Assembly (NCBI GenBank): GCA_947243855.1
Contig: CAMXIK010000001.1
Location: 186,001 to 250,000 of the forward strand
Origin: an uncultured Lachnospiraceae bacterium
Lineage (GTDB): Bacteria; Bacillota; Clostridia; Lachnospirales; Lachnospiraceae
Direction: 5' to 3'
DNA: 64,000 nt
A program made the position numbers and the translations under genes. Every line of letters begins with the position of its first letter. Position 1 is the stretch's first letter. The notes under the pieces were generated by a model. The model searched no databases. It was not told the origin of the DNA and worked only from the letters and a program-made list of their open reading frames with translations. Positions 21,311 through 55,369 of this stretch are shown here, piece after piece.

Positions 21311-21985
21311 TCAACTTTTGACGGGCGCGTCATGATAGAGAAGGGAAGCGGTTGATACAAGGTCGATTTCTGATAATTTGTCGACTAGCTCGTTCGCTTT
21401 CTGGCTTCTGATTTCTATAATAAGATCCATGCCCGATTGTCTTACATTTTTGGAATCAATTTTATAGCGCGGCGAATACTGGCGAATGACAGCCAGAATG
21501 TCGGCCTCCGCACTTTTATCCTGCGCATTGATAATGACAAGATAGGGACTGGTTCTGATGGGGATCACTTGCAGAAGCAGGATTCCCATGGTGCACACAA
21601 GCGCGACTAAAATAGCCAATTCATAAAGGTTTGCGCCGCAGATAATTCCAGTGCTGATGGACCAGAACAGGAACAGCAAATCCATAGGTTCTTTGATGGC
21701 GGTTCGGAAACGGACGATGGATAATGCGCCGACCATGCCGAGGGAAATAATCAGATTGGCCTGCATGGCCAGAATGATTCCCGTTACGACGACAGAAACC
21801 ATGGCCATGGACACACTGAAGCTTTTGTCATAAAAGGTTGTCCGGCTGATAAACCGGTATACAAAATAGATGTAAACTGCGAAGAGAAAACAGACGCCCA
21901 AGGATATGACAGCGTTTGTGGTCGAAAATCCGGGTGTGGAAAAAGCCTCTAAAACTGAATTTTTAATGATGTCGTTAAATCCCAT
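21311..21985 (-). CDS. DUF4956 membrane protein
   Basis: Four TM segments and SIVRFRTAIKEPMDLLFLFWSISTGIICGANLY, matching the DUF4956 pattern; overlaps the VTC gene by 11 nt. Confidence 0.85.
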   Translation of the reverse strand: MGFNDIIKNSVLEAFSTPGFSTTNAVISLGVCFLFAVYIYFVYRFISRTTFYDKSFSVSMAMVSVVVTGIILAMQANLIISLGMVGALSIVRFRTAIKEPMDLLFLFWSISTGIICGANLYELAILVALVCTMGILLLQVIPIRTSPYLVIINAQDKSAEADILAVIRQYSPRYKIDSKNVRQSGMDLIIEIRSQKANELVDKLSEIDLVSTASLLYHDAPVKS

Positions 21986-22691
21986 AAGAAATCTCCTTTC
22001 GGCCGATGGCGGCCCTTGTCAGATAGTATTTGGAAAAGGACTGTCTTTGCAGCCGCGCTAAATCCAACGCCTGCAAAAGATAGTGCGGCAGCAGCTCGTC
22101 ATACTTCACTTCCAGAATATGATGCGACTGCGGCATGACCGGAACCGTAAACAGGTCGGAGTCAAACAAACGGTCTGTCTGCGCGCTGCCGGCAACATTC
22201 CGGTCGAAGGTAACACGAACATTTCCCGTCGTTTCCGTAAAAGCGAAGCGCTCATATTCCACGATGCATTTCGGTGAAAAGCCTTTGCGTAATATCCCCA
22301 GAATCAGTTCTTCCAATAAACTGCCTTTTTCGCTTTGCGTCTGGATGTCGTGCAGGCTGTCGAGGCGGCAGGTCAGAAGAGCTTGGTACTCCTCAAAGGT
22401 TAAGGGCTGCGTCGTTTTCTTGGTCATGTCGGCGTATTTCGTCTTTTTTTCCAGACGGATAAAATTGGGGTTATTGTCATAGATTCTGATTCGGTATTTT
22501 TCCCGGAAGGGAACCCCGTTTTCCTTTTCCGCCATACAGGAATCGTACAGGTCGTCGAAGTAAAGACTTCGGATCAGGTATCCGCCCGCGCCCTGATGAC
22601 GGTCGGGCTGCATAAGCGGCGATAGCCTGTAGTACAACCGCTGGAAATCGTAATCGGGCAGCTCAAATTTTAGTTCATTTCTGTATTCCAT
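21975..22691 (-). CDS. VTC domain (polyphosphate polymerase-like) protein
   Basis: EYRNELKFELPDYDFQRL...YLIRSLYFDDLYDSCMAEKENGVPFREKYRIRIYD...RLEKKTKY; overlaps the upstream cotH by 17 nt. Confidence 0.88.
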   Translation of the reverse strand: MEYRNELKFELPDYDFQRLYYRLSPLMQPDRHQGAGGYLIRSLYFDDLYDSCMAEKENGVPFREKYRIRIYDNNPNFIRLEKKTKYADMTKKTTQPLTFEEYQALLTCRLDSLHDIQTQSEKGSLLEELILGILRKGFSPKCIVEYERFAFTETTGNVRVTFDRNVAGSAQTDRLFDSDLFTVPVMPQSHHILEVKYDELLPHYLLQALDLARLQRQSFSKYYLTRAAIGRKEISYGI

Positions 22692-24399
22692 TTTGCGCTA
22701 ACCACTCCTCTCCCATACTGTTTTCCAAGAAATTCCAGACAACATCGTACCTTTCGGCAAAGAATGTCCGCATGTTAGTTACATATTGCTCAAATTCATC
22801 GGATTTATCGTCCATGTAAAACCGCATGTTGCTGGCCGCAAGGGGTTCTCTCATAGTCTGCACATATTGATCGATAAATAAATTGCATGTTTCGGGTGCA
22901 AAAACATCCTTTCCGATATACAGGAGCCGCTCGGTAAATTGGCGGCGGAATTCTTCGTTTTGATATAATGAACTGAAAATGCGGTCCTCTTCTAAGACAC
23001 GGGAAAGACTGTCATCGGATAGAACCATCTCTGAGGAATTGATATCAAACAGCATCCAGCGCCACTTGCCGTCACCGTAGCGGGAACCGTCGTTTGCCCG
23101 TGTCCGCCATAGGGCGAAGTTGCTTCCGGGCCAGTCATACCATCCGCCGATATAGATGTGGAGGGCGTAATAGTCGATAAAGCTGTCTATGTCGATGAGT
23201 TCTCTGGCTTGATGATAGGCTTCGGGATCAGACATATCATGATCGTACATAAAGAAGCGCATTTCATCAAATGCTTGGAAATCTTCCTCCAGTCCGGCGG
23301 CCAAATCATAGTTTTTAATCATAATGACGTTACTATTTGCGACTTGATAATGGTCGTGGATATAATCGGCATTATAATCTTCCGTAATATAATACATGCC
23401 CCAGTATTCTCCGTCGAGAAACATGGCGCAGGGAATAAAGTCCATGGTAGCAAAATGCAGATCCTGCGCCATCGTATTTACAAGATAATCTTTCAATTTG
23501 AAACAATTATCGTCGCCGCCTGCGAACAAGACAATTTTATGAGGGAAGCTATCTGTTTGAAAAATATTCGCATCAAAAGAATTACTGCCGCCGTAAATAT
23601 CTCTGGCGTAGCAGCTAATACTCCTTGGAAGCTGCCCGCGCGTGGCGCCGCCTTTAATGCGGATACCGCATTTTTCGGAGAGAACGGCATTTTGATGATT
23701 GTCAAAGATCGTAAGATCGGCTTCCCGCTCCCAATCGATTCCGTAGTTAAAGAAGTTTGCCGGCCAATACCGCCATTGGAAGCTGTACCAGAGATCGTCT
23801 CTGGTGATATCTCCTTTTAGGCATTCTGCAAAGGTATTGCCGAGAACATAAATACCGATATCGTCGTCAAAAAGGTTTTCGGGAGACGTCACGATTGAGG
23901 CGGTATAAATATCCTGATAGCTGCGCCGATCCTGAAAACCGACAAAATAAGTGCCAGTGATGGAATCAAGACAATTACCATCGGGGTCAAACAAGGAAGC
24001 GCGTATAATGGTGCATTTATCCACAAGATACGCGGGCGCCGTATAACCAATATAAGGGAAAGCGGTTGAATATTGGTCGATGAGATCTTGTTGAAGCCCA
24101 GCCGATGTATCGGTTCTTGCGGAATAAACATTCGGGTGATTTGACGCGTCTTCTATATATAACGGGCTCTCCTTGTCAAATACAAGGTCATTCACGGTCG
24201 GTTCCCTGCCATCCAAAGTATAGTGTATGGTATTTTTTCCGCCGCCATAAATGGAGAGGTAAAACGGGGCATCGTAGTATCCCGGTTCGCTGGAAAATGT
24301 CAGTTGATTTCCGTAAAAAAATTTAAAAAGGGGGAAAACTGCTAGTACCGCCATAATTATGATTACAATGGATAAAGACTGTTTGGTATAGGTACTAAT
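22675..24399 (-). CDS. CotH kinase family protein (copy 1), membrane-anchored, chitobiase C-terminal-like domain
   Basis: IHYTLDGREPT (CHB_HEX_C_1-like), CGIRIKGGATRGQLPRSI, FLDGEYWGMYYITEDYNADYI, KWRWMLFDIN. ORF track gives GTG 24408; SD spacing and the paralog suggest ATT 24399. Confidence 0.85.
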   Translation of the reverse strand: MSTYTKQSLSIVIIIMAVLAVFPLFKFFYGNQLTFSSEPGYYDAPFYLSIYGGGKNTIHYTLDGREPTVNDLVFDKESPLYIEDASNHPNVYSARTDTSAGLQQDLIDQYSTAFPYIGYTAPAYLVDKCTIIRASLFDPDGNCLDSITGTYFVGFQDRRSYQDIYTASIVTSPENLFDDDIGIYVLGNTFAECLKGDITRDDLWYSFQWRYWPANFFNYGIDWEREADLTIFDNHQNAVLSEKCGIRIKGGATRGQLPRSISCYARDIYGGSNSFDANIFQTDSFPHKIVLFAGGDDNCFKLKDYLVNTMAQDLHFATMDFIPCAMFLDGEYWGMYYITEDYNADYIHDHYQVANSNVIMIKNYDLAAGLEEDFQAFDEMRFFMYDHDMSDPEAYHQARELIDIDSFIDYYALHIYIGGWYDWPGSNFALWRTRANDGSRYGDGKWRWMLFDINSSEMVLSDDSLSRVLEEDRIFSSLYQNEEFRRQFTERLLYIGKDVFAPETCNLFIDQYVQTMREPLAASNMRFYMDDKSDEFEQYVTNMRTFFAERYDVVWNFLENSMGEEWLAQNGIQK

Positions 24400-24510
24400 T
24401 AGAATCACTCCCTTTTTTGCATAATACGGTATAGGCGGTTTAACGCTTTTTCTCCTATAGCTTGTATTATGATACCATACAGATTTCAGCGTTTCAATGA
24501 ATTTACTTTT

Positions 24511-26244
24511 TTATTTTTGTATTCCATTTTGCGCTAGCCACTCCTCTCCCATATCCTGTACAAGGAAATCCCAGACCACATCATATCTTTGTTCAAAGAA
24601 CGTGCGCATGTCGGCTGCATATTGCTCAAATTCATCAGATTTATCATCCATGTAAAACCGCATGTTGCTGGCCGCAAGGGGTTCTCTCATTGTCTGCACA
24701 TATTGATCGATAAATAAATTGCATGTTTCAGGCGCGAAGACTTCTTTGCCAATGTATAGGAGCCGCTGGGCAAACTGGCGGCGGAAGGTTTCGTTTTGAT
24801 AAAGTGAAGCAAAAACGGGGTCTTCGCCTATCACATATGTAAGACTATCTAAGAAGAGATAGTCGCCGAATTTCCCCGGTTGATTTATGTCAAATAACAT
24901 CCACCGCCATTTGGTGTCGCCGTAGATGGAACCATCATTAGTGCGCGTTCTCCATAAGGCAATATTGTTGTGAGGCCAATCAACATTGGCAATATAAATT
25001 TCCATAGCATAATAGTCAATATAGCTGTCTATATCAATTAGATCGCAGGCACGATTGTAGTTTTCGCTATCGGTCATATTGTGTTCATTGATAAAGGCGG
25101 TCATTTCTTCGTAGAGCTGCCGGTCATCTTCAATCCCTGCGGTTAAATTGTCTTGGTAAGAATTGCGTTTCATCATGATAATATTGTCTTTGGCAACTTG
25201 ATAATGATGATGAATGTATTCCGCGTCATAATCTTCTGTAATATAATATGTCCCCCAATATTCTCCGTCGAGAAACAGGACACAAGGAATAAAATCTATC
25301 GTTGCAAAGGGTAGGTCTTGTGTCAGTGCATGTACGAGATAATCTTTCGCTCTGAATATATTATCTTGGCCGCCAGAAAATAAAACGATTTTATCAGGAA
25401 AGCTATTCTCATGAAATATATCAGCTTGAAAAGCGCTATGTTCACTGTATTCTGTTCTTGCATAACACCGAATGCTTCTGGGTAACAGTGCACAGCTTCC
25501 TTCACCCTTGATACGAATCCCGCATTTTTGGGAGAGGACAGTATTTTGCTGATTGTCAAAAAGCGTTATGTATGCTTCCCGCTCCCAACCAATTCCGCGC
25601 ATGAAATAGTTTGAGACCCAATTAGGCCAATGAGGCAGCTCGCTGAAATTGTCTTCATTATTAAGAAAATGATCAAACGTACTTCCATTAACATAGATGC
25701 CGATATCATCATCAAAAAGATTTTCAGGAGAGGTTACGATAGAAGCAGTATAAATATTCTGATAGCCCGTCTTTTCCTGAAATCCAATAAAATATGTTCC
25801 AGTGATGGAAGAGAGGCAGTTTCCCGCAGAATCAAATAGGGAGGCGCGGATAACGGTACACTTATCTACGGGATAATCAGGCGCGGTATAATTGGGTATA
25901 TCTTTTGTATCTGTATATTTTTCAATTAAGTCCGTCAAAAACCCCGTCGATGTATCCGTCCTCATAGAATAAACATTTGGATGAGTTGTTGCGTCTTCTA
26001 TGTATAGCGGTTTATTTTTGTTAAATACGGGATCGTTTGTGGTTGGCTCGCTGCCGTCCAACGTATAGTGTATGGCATATTTTCTGCCGCCATAAATGGA
26101 AAGATAAAACGGGGAATCATAAAACCCCGGCTCTCTGGAAAAAGAAAGCTGATTTCCGTAATGCAGTTTTATGAATGGAAAAGCAATCAATACCACTATA
26201 ATGACGGCTGCAATGGTTAAGACCTGTTTCGTATAGGCACTGAT
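24511..26244 (-). CDS. CotH kinase family protein (copy 2), membrane-anchored, chitobiase C-terminal-like domain
   Basis: Same architecture as copy 1, near-identical C-terminus. ORF track gives ATG 26301; a strong SD (AAAGGAGG, + strand 26254-26261) points to ATC 26244. Confidence 0.82.
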   Translation of the reverse strand: MSAYTKQVLTIAAVIIVVLIAFPFIKLHYGNQLSFSREPGFYDSPFYLSIYGGRKYAIHYTLDGSEPTTNDPVFNKNKPLYIEDATTHPNVYSMRTDTSTGFLTDLIEKYTDTKDIPNYTAPDYPVDKCTVIRASLFDSAGNCLSSITGTYFIGFQEKTGYQNIYTASIVTSPENLFDDDIGIYVNGSTFDHFLNNEDNFSELPHWPNWVSNYFMRGIGWEREAYITLFDNQQNTVLSQKCGIRIKGEGSCALLPRSIRCYARTEYSEHSAFQADIFHENSFPDKIVLFSGGQDNIFRAKDYLVHALTQDLPFATIDFIPCVLFLDGEYWGTYYITEDYDAEYIHHHYQVAKDNIIMMKRNSYQDNLTAGIEDDRQLYEEMTAFINEHNMTDSENYNRACDLIDIDSYIDYYAMEIYIANVDWPHNNIALWRTRTNDGSIYGDTKWRWMLFDINQPGKFGDYLFLDSLTYVIGEDPVFASLYQNETFRRQFAQRLLYIGKEVFAPETCNLFIDQYVQTMREPLAASNMRFYMDDKSDEFEQYAADMRTFFEQRYDVVWDFLVQDMGEEWLAQNGIQK

Positions 26245-26431
26245 TGTAATTCGCCTCCTTTTGTCAAATAGGAATTGCAATATTCTCGCCTTTGATCCCA
26301 TATCCTAAAACATAATATCATGTTAAATCCTATATTTCAACAAAATTATCATAATGAAAACGATAGAATAAAAAATATATAGGTTACAATATAATACAAG
26401 AGTAAAGCGGGAAGGGCATTGAGAGGTTCGT

Positions 26432-26755
26432 ATGATGTATGAAAAAAGTTTTGCGGAAAGACTTTCTCAGTTGAGATTACAAAAAGCGGTATCCGCCCGT
26501 GATATGAGTCTGTCAATTGGGCAAAATCCCGGCTATATCAATAATATCGAGACCGGTAAGGCGCTCCCTTCTATGAGCAACTTCTTTTATATCTGTCATT
26601 ATCTTGGCATTACTCCTATGGACTTTTTTAATTATGATGCCGTCCGTCCAAGAGATATGGATCAGATCTGTCATGAGTTAAATAAACTGACGGATTCGCA
26701 ATTTAGCAGTATTAAGGAGATCGTCGGAGAACTGGCGCGGCTGAACGGGCGGTGA
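26432..26755 (+). CDS. XRE-type HTH regulator
   Basis: FAERLSQLRLQKAVSARDMSLSIGQNPGYINNIETGKALPSMSNFFYICHYLGITPMDFF. Confidence 0.9.
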   Translation: MMYEKSFAERLSQLRLQKAVSARDMSLSIGQNPGYINNIETGKALPSMSNFFYICHYLGITPMDFFNYDAVRPRDMDQICHELNKLTDSQFSSIKEIVGELARLNGR

Positions 26756-52978: not shown

Positions 52979-55369
52979 ATGAGAAGCGGAAAACGGATTG
53001 CGCTTGGCGGTATGATTCTTGTATTGTCCGCCATGACGGCGGGAAGCAGTTTTTTGGCGAAAGAAACGGAAGGGAAAGGCGAAACAGATCGTTTCTGCGG
53101 TATTTGCATCAATGAAGTATGCAGCGATTTTTTCCCGACTTCTTTTACGGAAACGCAGACGCCCAGCGATTGGATTGAATTATATAATTGCTCTGAGGAA
53201 ACGGTCAATTTGGGCGGGTATTATCTCTCGGATGACGAGGAAGACTTACATAAGTGCAGTCTGCCCGCAGTCCAGGTGCCGCCGGACAGTTACTATGTGA
53301 TCCACAGCAGATGCGATGAGACACAGGAGGGCGAGGCAAGCCTGAATTTTGGGATCGACGCGCAGGGAGAAACCTTGTATTTATCCAATCGGGAGGGCGT
53401 CATAGATGTGGTTCGTGTCCCGGAGCTTGACAGCAATACTACATGGAGCAGGATGACAGATGCGGGGAGCAGGTGGGAGCATACGCAGCAGACTTATTGT
53501 GTCTCCAATGATTCAGCCGGAGCAGTTCAAGAGAAAATAGCGGAACCAGTTTTTTCGGCGGCAGGCGGTTTTTATGCGGACGAATTTGCGCTGGAACTGG
53601 AAGCGCCGTCGGGAAGCCGGATTTATTATACGTTGGACGGGAGCGAGCCGGACAGCGAAAGTTCTTTGTATGAGGAACCGATATGGATTCGGGACGTGTC
53701 GGGGGAGCCGGACGTCTATGCGGCGAGAACCGATTTTGCGCCGTTACAGGTTTCCCGCGAGGGCGGCCCGGTGCAAAAACTTATGGTGGTACGCGCGATC
53801 GCGATAGACGCGGAGGGCAGAAAAAGCGAGGTTGTCACGAACTCCTATCTTGTGGGCGGCGAATGGAAAGAGAATTGCATGGAAATGTATACGGTTTCCC
53901 TAGTAACCGACCCGTATCATTTATTTGATTATGAGGAAGGCATTTATGTATTAGGGAAGCGGTTCGACGACTTTCTCAATGCGGGAGGCGATTTGGAGGA
54001 TGCGATACAGGCGGATGCGAACTATCGTATCAGAGGGAAAAAATCGGAACGACCGGCAAGTATCGAAGTATTTGACGAAAATGGGACGTGTGTGCTTGAC
54101 CGTGAAATCGGCATACGGATTCATGGCAGTACCACCAGAGGGTGCGTCCAAAAAAGTTTTTCCGCCTTTGCCCGTGAAATTTACGACGGGGAGAATACCA
54201 TTGATGGACTCTTCGGGGAAGGAACGAGCGTACATAAATTCTTTCTCTATACGAACAGGGAAGGCACCAAGCTGAGAGACGCTCTGGTTTCCAGAATGCT
54301 CGCCGATAGGGATATGGCCACGCAGTCCCATATATACTGCAACTTGTTTTTAGACGGGGAGTATTGGGGAATGTACCTTTTGTCGGAGGTATACGACGAA
54401 TACTATTTTGAGAATCATTATGGCATCAGCCGGGACAATATTGAAATATGCGGGGGCGCTTCGCCGCAGGATGTGGTGGATTGGTTAGAGACCGTTCCGG
54501 ACAAATCGGACGCGGCGGTATATGATCAACTGTGCCAGATGATCGACGTGCAGAGTTTTATCGAGTATTATGCGGCAATGCTGTATTTAAACGACAGCGA
54601 CTGGTTAAGTTATAATGCCAGAAGCTACCGGAGCATAGAACCCGGACCGGGAAAGAATGAAGACGGAAAATGGCGCTGGGGCGTGTGGGATGTGGAAACG
54701 ACGATGTATGATGCGCATGAGGACACCTTTCACATGGGAAATGTATCTTCATGGGAAAATGATAAGATTGCGCAGGCGTTGATGGAACATGAGGAGTTTC
54801 GGGAACGGTTCGTCGTTACCTATATGGATTTATATAATACGCTTTGGAGGGAAGAGTGTATTCTGCCCGTTGTTTCCGATATGAGGGAGGGGATCGGCAA
54901 CTCTTATGCCTCACATATGGAGCGTTTTTACGAAGGCGTAGCCATCAATGAGTATTATGACAAGCTGGTGAATTTTTTGTCGGAAAGAGACGATTATGTT
55001 TTTTCTCACGTGAAGGAAGAGTTTGCCTTGGACAAAGAACCGGTGTGGCTGGTTATTTTGTCCAATGAAGCCGGAGCGGCTTCCATCAGGGTCAACACGT
55101 CGGTAATAGACATGCCGGAGACATGGTGGCAGGGCTTGTATTTTGCGGACTATCCAGTGGAAGCGGCGGTTGACGAGGTATACGAAGGCTATGAATTTCT
55201 TGGGTGGTACACGCAGGACGGCGAGCTTTTGAGTAGCGACAAGGTTCTCAAACTAGATCTGACGGAGGAAACCAATACCGTCTGCCTCCGGTTTGCCAAA
55301 GACGAAAGGGCTACGGGGAAAACAGCGGAAGATAGAGAAACAGATCAAAAACCCCGTCTTCTGTTTTGA
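52979..55369 (+). CDS. multidomain CotH kinase family protein (copy 3): lamin-tail-like, chitobiase C-terminal-like, CotH, InlB-B-repeat-like
   Basis: ICINEVCSDF...SDWIELYNCSEETVNLGGYYLSDDEED (LTD-like); IYYTLDGSEPDSES; GIRIHGSTTRGCVQKSFSAFAREIY, FLDGEYWGMYLLSEVYDEYYF, KWRWGVWDVETTMYD; YEGYEFLGWYTQDGEL. Confidence 0.85.
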   Translation: MRSGKRIALGGMILVLSAMTAGSSFLAKETEGKGETDRFCGICINEVCSDFFPTSFTETQTPSDWIELYNCSEETVNLGGYYLSDDEEDLHKCSLPAVQVPPDSYYVIHSRCDETQEGEASLNFGIDAQGETLYLSNREGVIDVVRVPELDSNTTWSRMTDAGSRWEHTQQTYCVSNDSAGAVQEKIAEPVFSAAGGFYADEFALELEAPSGSRIYYTLDGSEPDSESSLYEEPIWIRDVSGEPDVYAARTDFAPLQVSREGGPVQKLMVVRAIAIDAEGRKSEVVTNSYLVGGEWKENCMEMYTVSLVTDPYHLFDYEEGIYVLGKRFDDFLNAGGDLEDAIQADANYRIRGKKSERPASIEVFDENGTCVLDREIGIRIHGSTTRGCVQKSFSAFAREIYDGENTIDGLFGEGTSVHKFFLYTNREGTKLRDALVSRMLADRDMATQSHIYCNLFLDGEYWGMYLLSEVYDEYYFENHYGISRDNIEICGGASPQDVVDWLETVPDKSDAAVYDQLCQMIDVQSFIEYYAAMLYLNDSDWLSYNARSYRSIEPGPGKNEDGKWRWGVWDVETTMYDAHEDTFHMGNVSSWENDKIAQALMEHEEFRERFVVTYMDLYNTLWREECILPVVSDMREGIGNSYASHMERFYEGVAINEYYDKLVNFLSERDDYVFSHVKEEFALDKEPVWLVILSNEAGAASIRVNTSVIDMPETWWQGLYFADYPVEAAVDEVYEGYEFLGWYTQDGELLSSDKVLKLDLTEETNTVCLRFAKDERATGKTAEDRETDQKPRLLF

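Follow-up and report, generated by a model that had tools for sequence, protein, structure and literature searches.

A conserved VTC–DUF4956 gene pair with tandem CotH genes in a Lachnospiraceae genome: a candidate phosphate-chemistry cassette of the cell envelope

The stretch of 64,000 nucleotides analysed here (the window), from an uncultured Lachnospiraceae bacterium, carries two CotH genes, a VTC gene and a DUF4956 gene in a row, and this cassette is almost certainly one conserved functional unit. The trio of families was already known; what is new is mainly the breadth of its distribution, its independence from pel loci, an alternative partner of the VTC–DUF4956 pair, and the tandem CotH arrangement. 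Our best reading, to which we give a probability of roughly 0.4, is that the cassette encodes a membrane-coupled polymerase of the polyphosphate type, which would serve an outward-facing kinase in the modification of a surface polymer. The components and the adjoining regulatory region are as follows:

24511-26301, minus strand: CotH-2, 596 aa; basic N-terminus, membrane helix at about 26-44, CHB_HEX_C_1/Fn3_assoc module, CotH kinase-fold domain (Pfam)
22675-24408, minus strand: CotH-1, 577 aa, GTG start; tandem copy with the layout of CotH-2 (Pfam)
21975-22691, minus strand: predicted VTC-family triphosphate-tunnel enzyme, 238 aa, no membrane helix (Pfam)
21311-21985, minus strand: DUF4956, MgtC-like membrane protein; five predicted helices, then a C-terminal ACT-like domain (Pfam)
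26302-26431, no strand: divergent promoter region between CotH-2 and the XRE gene (sequence motifs)
26432-26755, plus strand: XRE/Cro-type regulator, divergent from the cassette; XRE-type HTH match at 1e-8 (Pfam)

A preliminary description of this DNA had reported four minus-strand genes, overlaps of 17 and 11 nt and a divergent XRE gene, all of which the reading-frame coordinates and Pfam matches bear out. CotH-1 and VTC share exactly 17 nt (22675-22691), VTC and DUF4956 exactly 11 nt (21975-21985), and all three families are contiguous and co-directional (Pfam E-values of 3e-11 for DUF4956, 7e-36 for VTC, and 1e-29 and 3e-31 for the CotHs). The 17-nt overlap recurs in the loci L053, L073, L074 and L147 and on the annotated Pseudobutyrivibrio plasmid pNP95, and overlap or near-abutment is frequent in the family, with exceptions. 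The closest relatives that we found are from Lachnospiraceae (the DUF4956 of L073 is 92% identical). The 130-bp gap between the cassette and the XRE gene contains a TG-extended, sigma-A-like promoter on the minus strand (TTGAAA-17-TATTAT, 26340-26312), a facing TATAAT on the plus strand, and the inverted arms ATATAGG/CCTATAT. This block is largely kept in L073 and L053, which also have an XRE gene at the equivalent position. The cassette is probably transcribed from a single promoter beside the XRE gene, and the XRE protein may control it. Next after the XRE gene comes a SipL/LysM gene, on the strand opposite to the cassette.

The preliminary description had made its proposal depend on conservation beyond close relatives, and the pairing proved to extend well past these. 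Since VTC and DUF4956 occupy the same 35 of 250 genomes drawn evenly from the phylum and are adjacent on one strand in 44 of 45 pairs, their association is not due to chance. Their copy numbers are equal (45 each), and the sole non-adjacent pair lies at contig ends. CotH lies within 5 kb of 28 of the 45 VTC genes in this sample; it occurs in 32 of the 250 genomes, 29 of them VTC-positive (Fisher p 1e-28). The genus sample (60 genomes) contains VTC in 58 genomes, DUF4956 in 58 and CotH in 54; among the genus VTC genes listed, DUF4956 lies within 3 kb downstream in 138 of 150, and a listed CotH is present within 6 kb of at least 66. DUF4956 is also found just downstream of VTC in 120 of 122 contexts from the wider loci. 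The distance matrices of the two proteins are strongly correlated over 120 pairs (r = 0.89; permuted maximum 0.15), a co-divergence to which shared ancestry contributes. In 94 of the 120 pairs, the same strand encodes an exported partner within 6 kb, either CotH or the carbohydrate-binding family Cthe_2159, which stands in for it in some cassettes. The CotH counts over the wider loci and the 120 pairs are lower bounds, because the model was derived from the copies of this genome and contigs often break off close to the pair. The trio is also found in the actinomycete Nonomuraea, and among the control genomes a Bacteroides, Corynebacterium glutamicum and Methanosarcina acetivorans have both VTC and DUF4956, the remaining ones neither. 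Co-occurrence and family membership thus support the earlier picture of a conserved, tightly coupled envelope cassette of phosphate-chemistry families.

Under our preferred reading, the cytosolic VTC protein would act as a Vtc4-like polymerase, with ATP as the source of polyphosphate or of a short phosphate chain. It would sit on DUF4956, whose conserved arginines and ACT-like domain are predicted to face the cytosol, and DUF4956 would either pass the chain through the membrane or control VTC. Outside, the anchored CotHs may modify surface polysaccharide or protein, either drawing on this phosphate supply or working alongside it. Phosphotransfer and a membrane complex, which the preliminary description had also proposed, are what we infer from the families and their arrangement.

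The AlphaFold model of DUF4956 (pLDDT 78) has helices at 22-46, 54-73, 76-96, 100-117 and 121-140, followed by a C-terminal beta-alpha-beta-beta-alpha-beta domain that is ACT-like. A count of five helices would place the ACT domain and the two arginines of an invariant VRFR motif (R92, R94) on the cytosolic side. A profile comparison of DUF4956 with MgtC of related genomes gave a match at 97% probability (E 3e-11, score 78.6) over 200 columns spanning the membrane and ACT-like parts; either half alone also matches, and reversed and block-shuffled control profiles scored at most 27.8. The Pfam MgtC model matches two DUF4956 genes of the genus (E <1e-4), and the window protein, at 15.9 bits, falls under its gathering score of 31.4. 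Judged by these profiles, DUF4956 is a full-length MgtC relative, with a membrane domain and an ACT-like C-terminal domain. It shares this colinear organisation with the MgtC/SapB/YhiD proteins, but differs from them in its conserved motif GALSIVRFRTA, in scoring under the MgtC cut-off and in having a Pfam family to itself. ACT domains usually bind small ligands. SIR_1592 of Streptococcus intermedius, which likewise has membrane helices, an ACT domain and an MgtC relation, was already described as MgtC plus ACT in 2025 (PMC12345266), and our result confirms that description.

This ancestry bears on the main alternative, a purely regulatory role, which is nearly as likely as a polymerase acting on a membrane protein. 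VTC and DUF4956 would then work on the cytosolic side, sensing or adjusting ATP, phosphate or polyphosphate and tuning a surface polymer, with CotH as an independent surface kinase or anchor and no chain crossing the membrane. A relative of MgtC with a ligand-binding type of domain fits such a role. Work cited in PMC12345266 reports MgtC to regulate ATP synthase and the uptake of phosphate, not to act as a channel. The S. intermedius mutants agree with a regulatory role, Pel having increased without the DUF4956 homologue and decreased without CotH (PMC12345266), and so do the two-component genes that adjoin many VTC–DUF4956 pairs, above all those of the RFRS subtype (9/13). DUF4956 proteins with the RFRS motif occur mainly with Cthe_2159 and two-component genes, and the RFRTA form mainly with CotH (120 pairs). 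However, an exported partner beside 94 of 120 pairs is more than would be expected for a purely cytosolic regulator.

DUF4956 is also found without a nearby VTC gene on Hymenobacter and Sinorhizobium plasmids. On that of Hymenobacter volaticus (L221:5658-8898) it lies between a protein resembling a periplasmic adaptor and a TolC-type outer membrane protein, and on pSymA of Sinorhizobium meliloti (L224:5290-7660) it adjoins a caspase-domain (Peptidase_C14) gene. The Hymenobacter arrangement suggests that DUF4956 may serve other transport systems. We dropped it as evidence that proves export and keep it as a lead, since the neighbouring 359-aa protein is adaptor-like by eye only and its Pfam and PDB searches were empty.

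The VTC protein is probably catalytically active, judging by its conserved residues. VTC is the only Pfam family that it matches, above the curated cut-off, and no CYTH match was found; NCBIfam models (E 0.01) match neither it nor DUF4956 nor the CotHs. Single-sequence PDB searches returned no match, and profiles were required. A profile of 30 VTC relatives matched yeast Vtc4 (3g3q) at 1e-15, and all PDB chains matched were of the Vtc family. The preliminary description had regarded loss of the active site as fatal to its proposal, and the site is kept: the tunnel residues (R/K, RxR, K, K, R, R, ExK, SK) are present, Vtc4 R196, K200, R264, R266, K281, K294, R361, R373, E426, K428, S457 and K458 corresponding to window residues R4, K8, R67, R69, K83, K92, R148, R159, E194, K196, S220 and K221 (Vtc4 numbering taken as 3g3q chain index + 185, from the construct length). 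These Vtc4 residues are presumably catalytic in yeast. All 12 are invariant across the alignment of relatives; the exception is Vtc4 K455, whose equivalent is not conserved. The catalytic domain is thus homologous to that of the eukaryotic VTC complex and shares its key residues (Vtc4 TTM domain; PDB 3g3q, 8i6v, 7ytj), and the association of catalytic and membrane parts seen in that complex would hold for the cassette as well. Unlike the eukaryotic complex, the window protein, with a single Pfam domain and no membrane helix, has neither an SPX domain nor the three-helix membrane domain of Vtc1, and the role of membrane part falls to a second protein, of another family (DUF4956). PPK1 is also encoded in the genome, which thus has a route to polyphosphate besides VTC. 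A substitution of VTC for PPK in the lineage was rejected, given PPK1 in this genome and no depletion of PPK1 in VTC genomes. No bacterial VTC-domain protein with demonstrated polyphosphate synthesis was found in the literature searched.

The triphosphate-tunnel fold is also occupied by triphosphatases. That VTC is another enzyme of this fold, such as an NTP or tripolyphosphate hydrolase, and that CotH transfers AMP or phosphate to a surface glycan, seems rather improbable to us: the missing K455 and a VTC deletion reported without phenotype (PMC12345266) would agree with it, but the match to VTC and not CYTH in Pfam, and to Vtc-family chains only in the PDB, speak for a polymerase relative.

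Genes for cotH, a poly-phosphate polymerase, DUF4956 and DUF4832 were described in 2020 beside the biofilm sugar locus pelDEADAFG in Gram-positives, the trio adjoining it in streptococci, clostridia and bifidobacteria (PMC7112168). Deletions of the S. intermedius trio SIR_1594-SIR_1593-SIR_1592 followed in 2025: in artificial sputum, aggregation of the DUF4956 and CotH mutants fell by over half, whereas no change in aggregation or Pel was reported for the VTC deletion (PMC12345266). The word "uncharacterised" in the preliminary description thus holds only in part, being too strong for the DUF4956 and CotH homologues. The same study did not find the trio outside the pel locus (PMC12345266). This does not hold more widely, since PelG is absent from the present genome and from 33 of the 35 VTC genomes of the phylum sample. 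The two genomes with PelG have it directly upstream of CotH-CotH-VTC-DUF4956 (G172) or on another contig (G204). The window cassette shares with the pel accessory set (PMC7112168; PMC12345266) the three families in one contiguous set and a secreted CotH; it differs in having no pel genes among its neighbours, two CotH copies and a divergent XRE gene, and in most genomes sampled the cassette is not pel-bound. VTC and CotH genes were also reported in 2010 in NELoc-2 of Clostridium perfringens (CP4_0460-0468; PMC2879425). That locus and one on a Planococcus maritimus plasmid (L220) share with the window a VTC gene, a neighbouring gene for a small membrane protein (annotated as tubulin/FtsZ in NELoc-2 in 2010 and as DUF4956 in L220) and CotH, but both continue with a HEAT-repeat protein and a glycosyltransferase, which the window cassette lacks.

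The present genome has four VTC–DUF4956 pairs in differing contexts:

The window cassette
Pair C1, near 166 kb: CotH after DUF4956
Pair C2, near 46 kb: in a polysaccharide export region, accompanied by LTD-CotH and Cthe_2159
Pair C11: without CotH, beside sugar-nucleotide genes

Behind the fourth pair (L017:3407-5416), the place of CotH is taken by a 669-aa protein that matches no Pfam family and a leucine-rich repeat protein of the BspA type. Many cassette loci are regions of exopolysaccharide genes, among them those for glycosyltransferases, a sugar transferase and LytR-CpsA-Psr proteins; the pNP95 cassette lies in such a region, and L018 has Wzt, GH25 and epimerase genes in a polysaccharide context. 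On an Enterococcus faecalis plasmid (L225:6989-12116), VTC, DUF4956, a two-component pair and CotH stand in a row. The occurrence of the cassette on Enterococcus, Pseudobutyrivibrio and Planococcus plasmids indicates that it can move. A pel link for this genome was rejected for want of PelG. That the cassette is a pel-type accessory set whose pel genes were lost here is very improbable: the published neighbourhoods (PMC7112168) and G172 favour it, but the rarity of PelG among VTC genomes and the differing contexts of the four pairs do not.

Each cassette CotH has a single membrane helix near the N-terminus, so the rest of the protein, including the CHB_HEX_C_1/Fn3_assoc module found by Pfam in both, is probably outside. 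The CotH-2 model (pLDDT 82) best matches the CotH kinase 5jd9/5jda (E 5e-10, TM-score on target 0.74). Putative kinase residues are E356, D441..N446 and D471 in CotH-2 and E343, D425..N430 and D455 in CotH-1, with roles that we take to be those in the 5JD9/5JDA work, and the subfamily retains GEYWG.YYITE, D....N and the FDIN aspartate. By model and motif, both proteins are predicted to have the CotH kinase fold and its D/N/D motifs. They are 67% identical overall, with 87% identity in the last 100 alignment columns and 51-74% elsewhere (the L073 pair is alike), which suggests gene conversion. A third CotH gene of the window (52979-55369, plus strand; 796 aa, LTD + CHB_HEX_C_1 + CotH) has no adjoining VTC or DUF4956, nor have three more in a polysaccharide locus of this genome (L020:7140-10956 and L021:1972-3834). 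An apparent CotH-VTC fusion in G018 (L055, 844-aa frame) was dropped: its codon 602 is TAN and immediately precedes the VTC ATG, which makes a masked stop likely.

The spore-coat connection drawn in the preliminary description found no support. A spore-coat system, with CotH as the coat kinase and SipL adjoining, is the least credible reading of all: beyond the CotH name and the SipL/LysM gene, which lies on the other strand, it has to face cassette CotHs that are larger than the several stand-alone CotHs of about 370 aa in the phylum sample, a predicted outward-facing anchor that argues against a coat role, and the trio in non-spore-formers, e.g., streptococci (PMC7112168) and on the E. faecalis plasmid.

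Our preferred reading, a surface-phosphate system, counts in its favour the co-occurrence and co-divergence of VTC and DUF4956, the Vtc4 residues, the MgtC match, the CotH fold and motifs, the polysaccharide gene context, and the Pel and aggregation changes in S. intermedius (PMC12345266). Against it count the failure of the literature searched to yield a polyphosphate-making bacterial VTC protein, the lack of a reported change in the S. intermedius VTC deletion, PPK1, the reported regulatory nature of MgtC, DUF4956 without VTC, the replacement of CotH by Cthe_2159, and the share of common ancestry in the co-divergence. Its parts are not equally probable. Passage of the polymer across the membrane via DUF4956 is possible, if doubtful, and use of that polymer by CotH as a donor is unlikely. 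Less likely still is a complete split bacterial VTC machine, in which polyphosphate made by VTC would be threaded out by DUF4956 and used by CotH to phosphorylate or polyphosphorylate surface polymers, as a substitute for ATP, of which little is available outside the cell.

Extracellular kinases require a phosphate donor outside the cell, and no assigned role for bacterial VTC-domain proteins was found in the literature searched. The pairing of VTC, always with an MgtC-like protein in the phylum and usually with an outward kinase fold, makes both the question of the donor and that of the role of VTC testable, and corrects the published view of the trio as belonging to pel loci.
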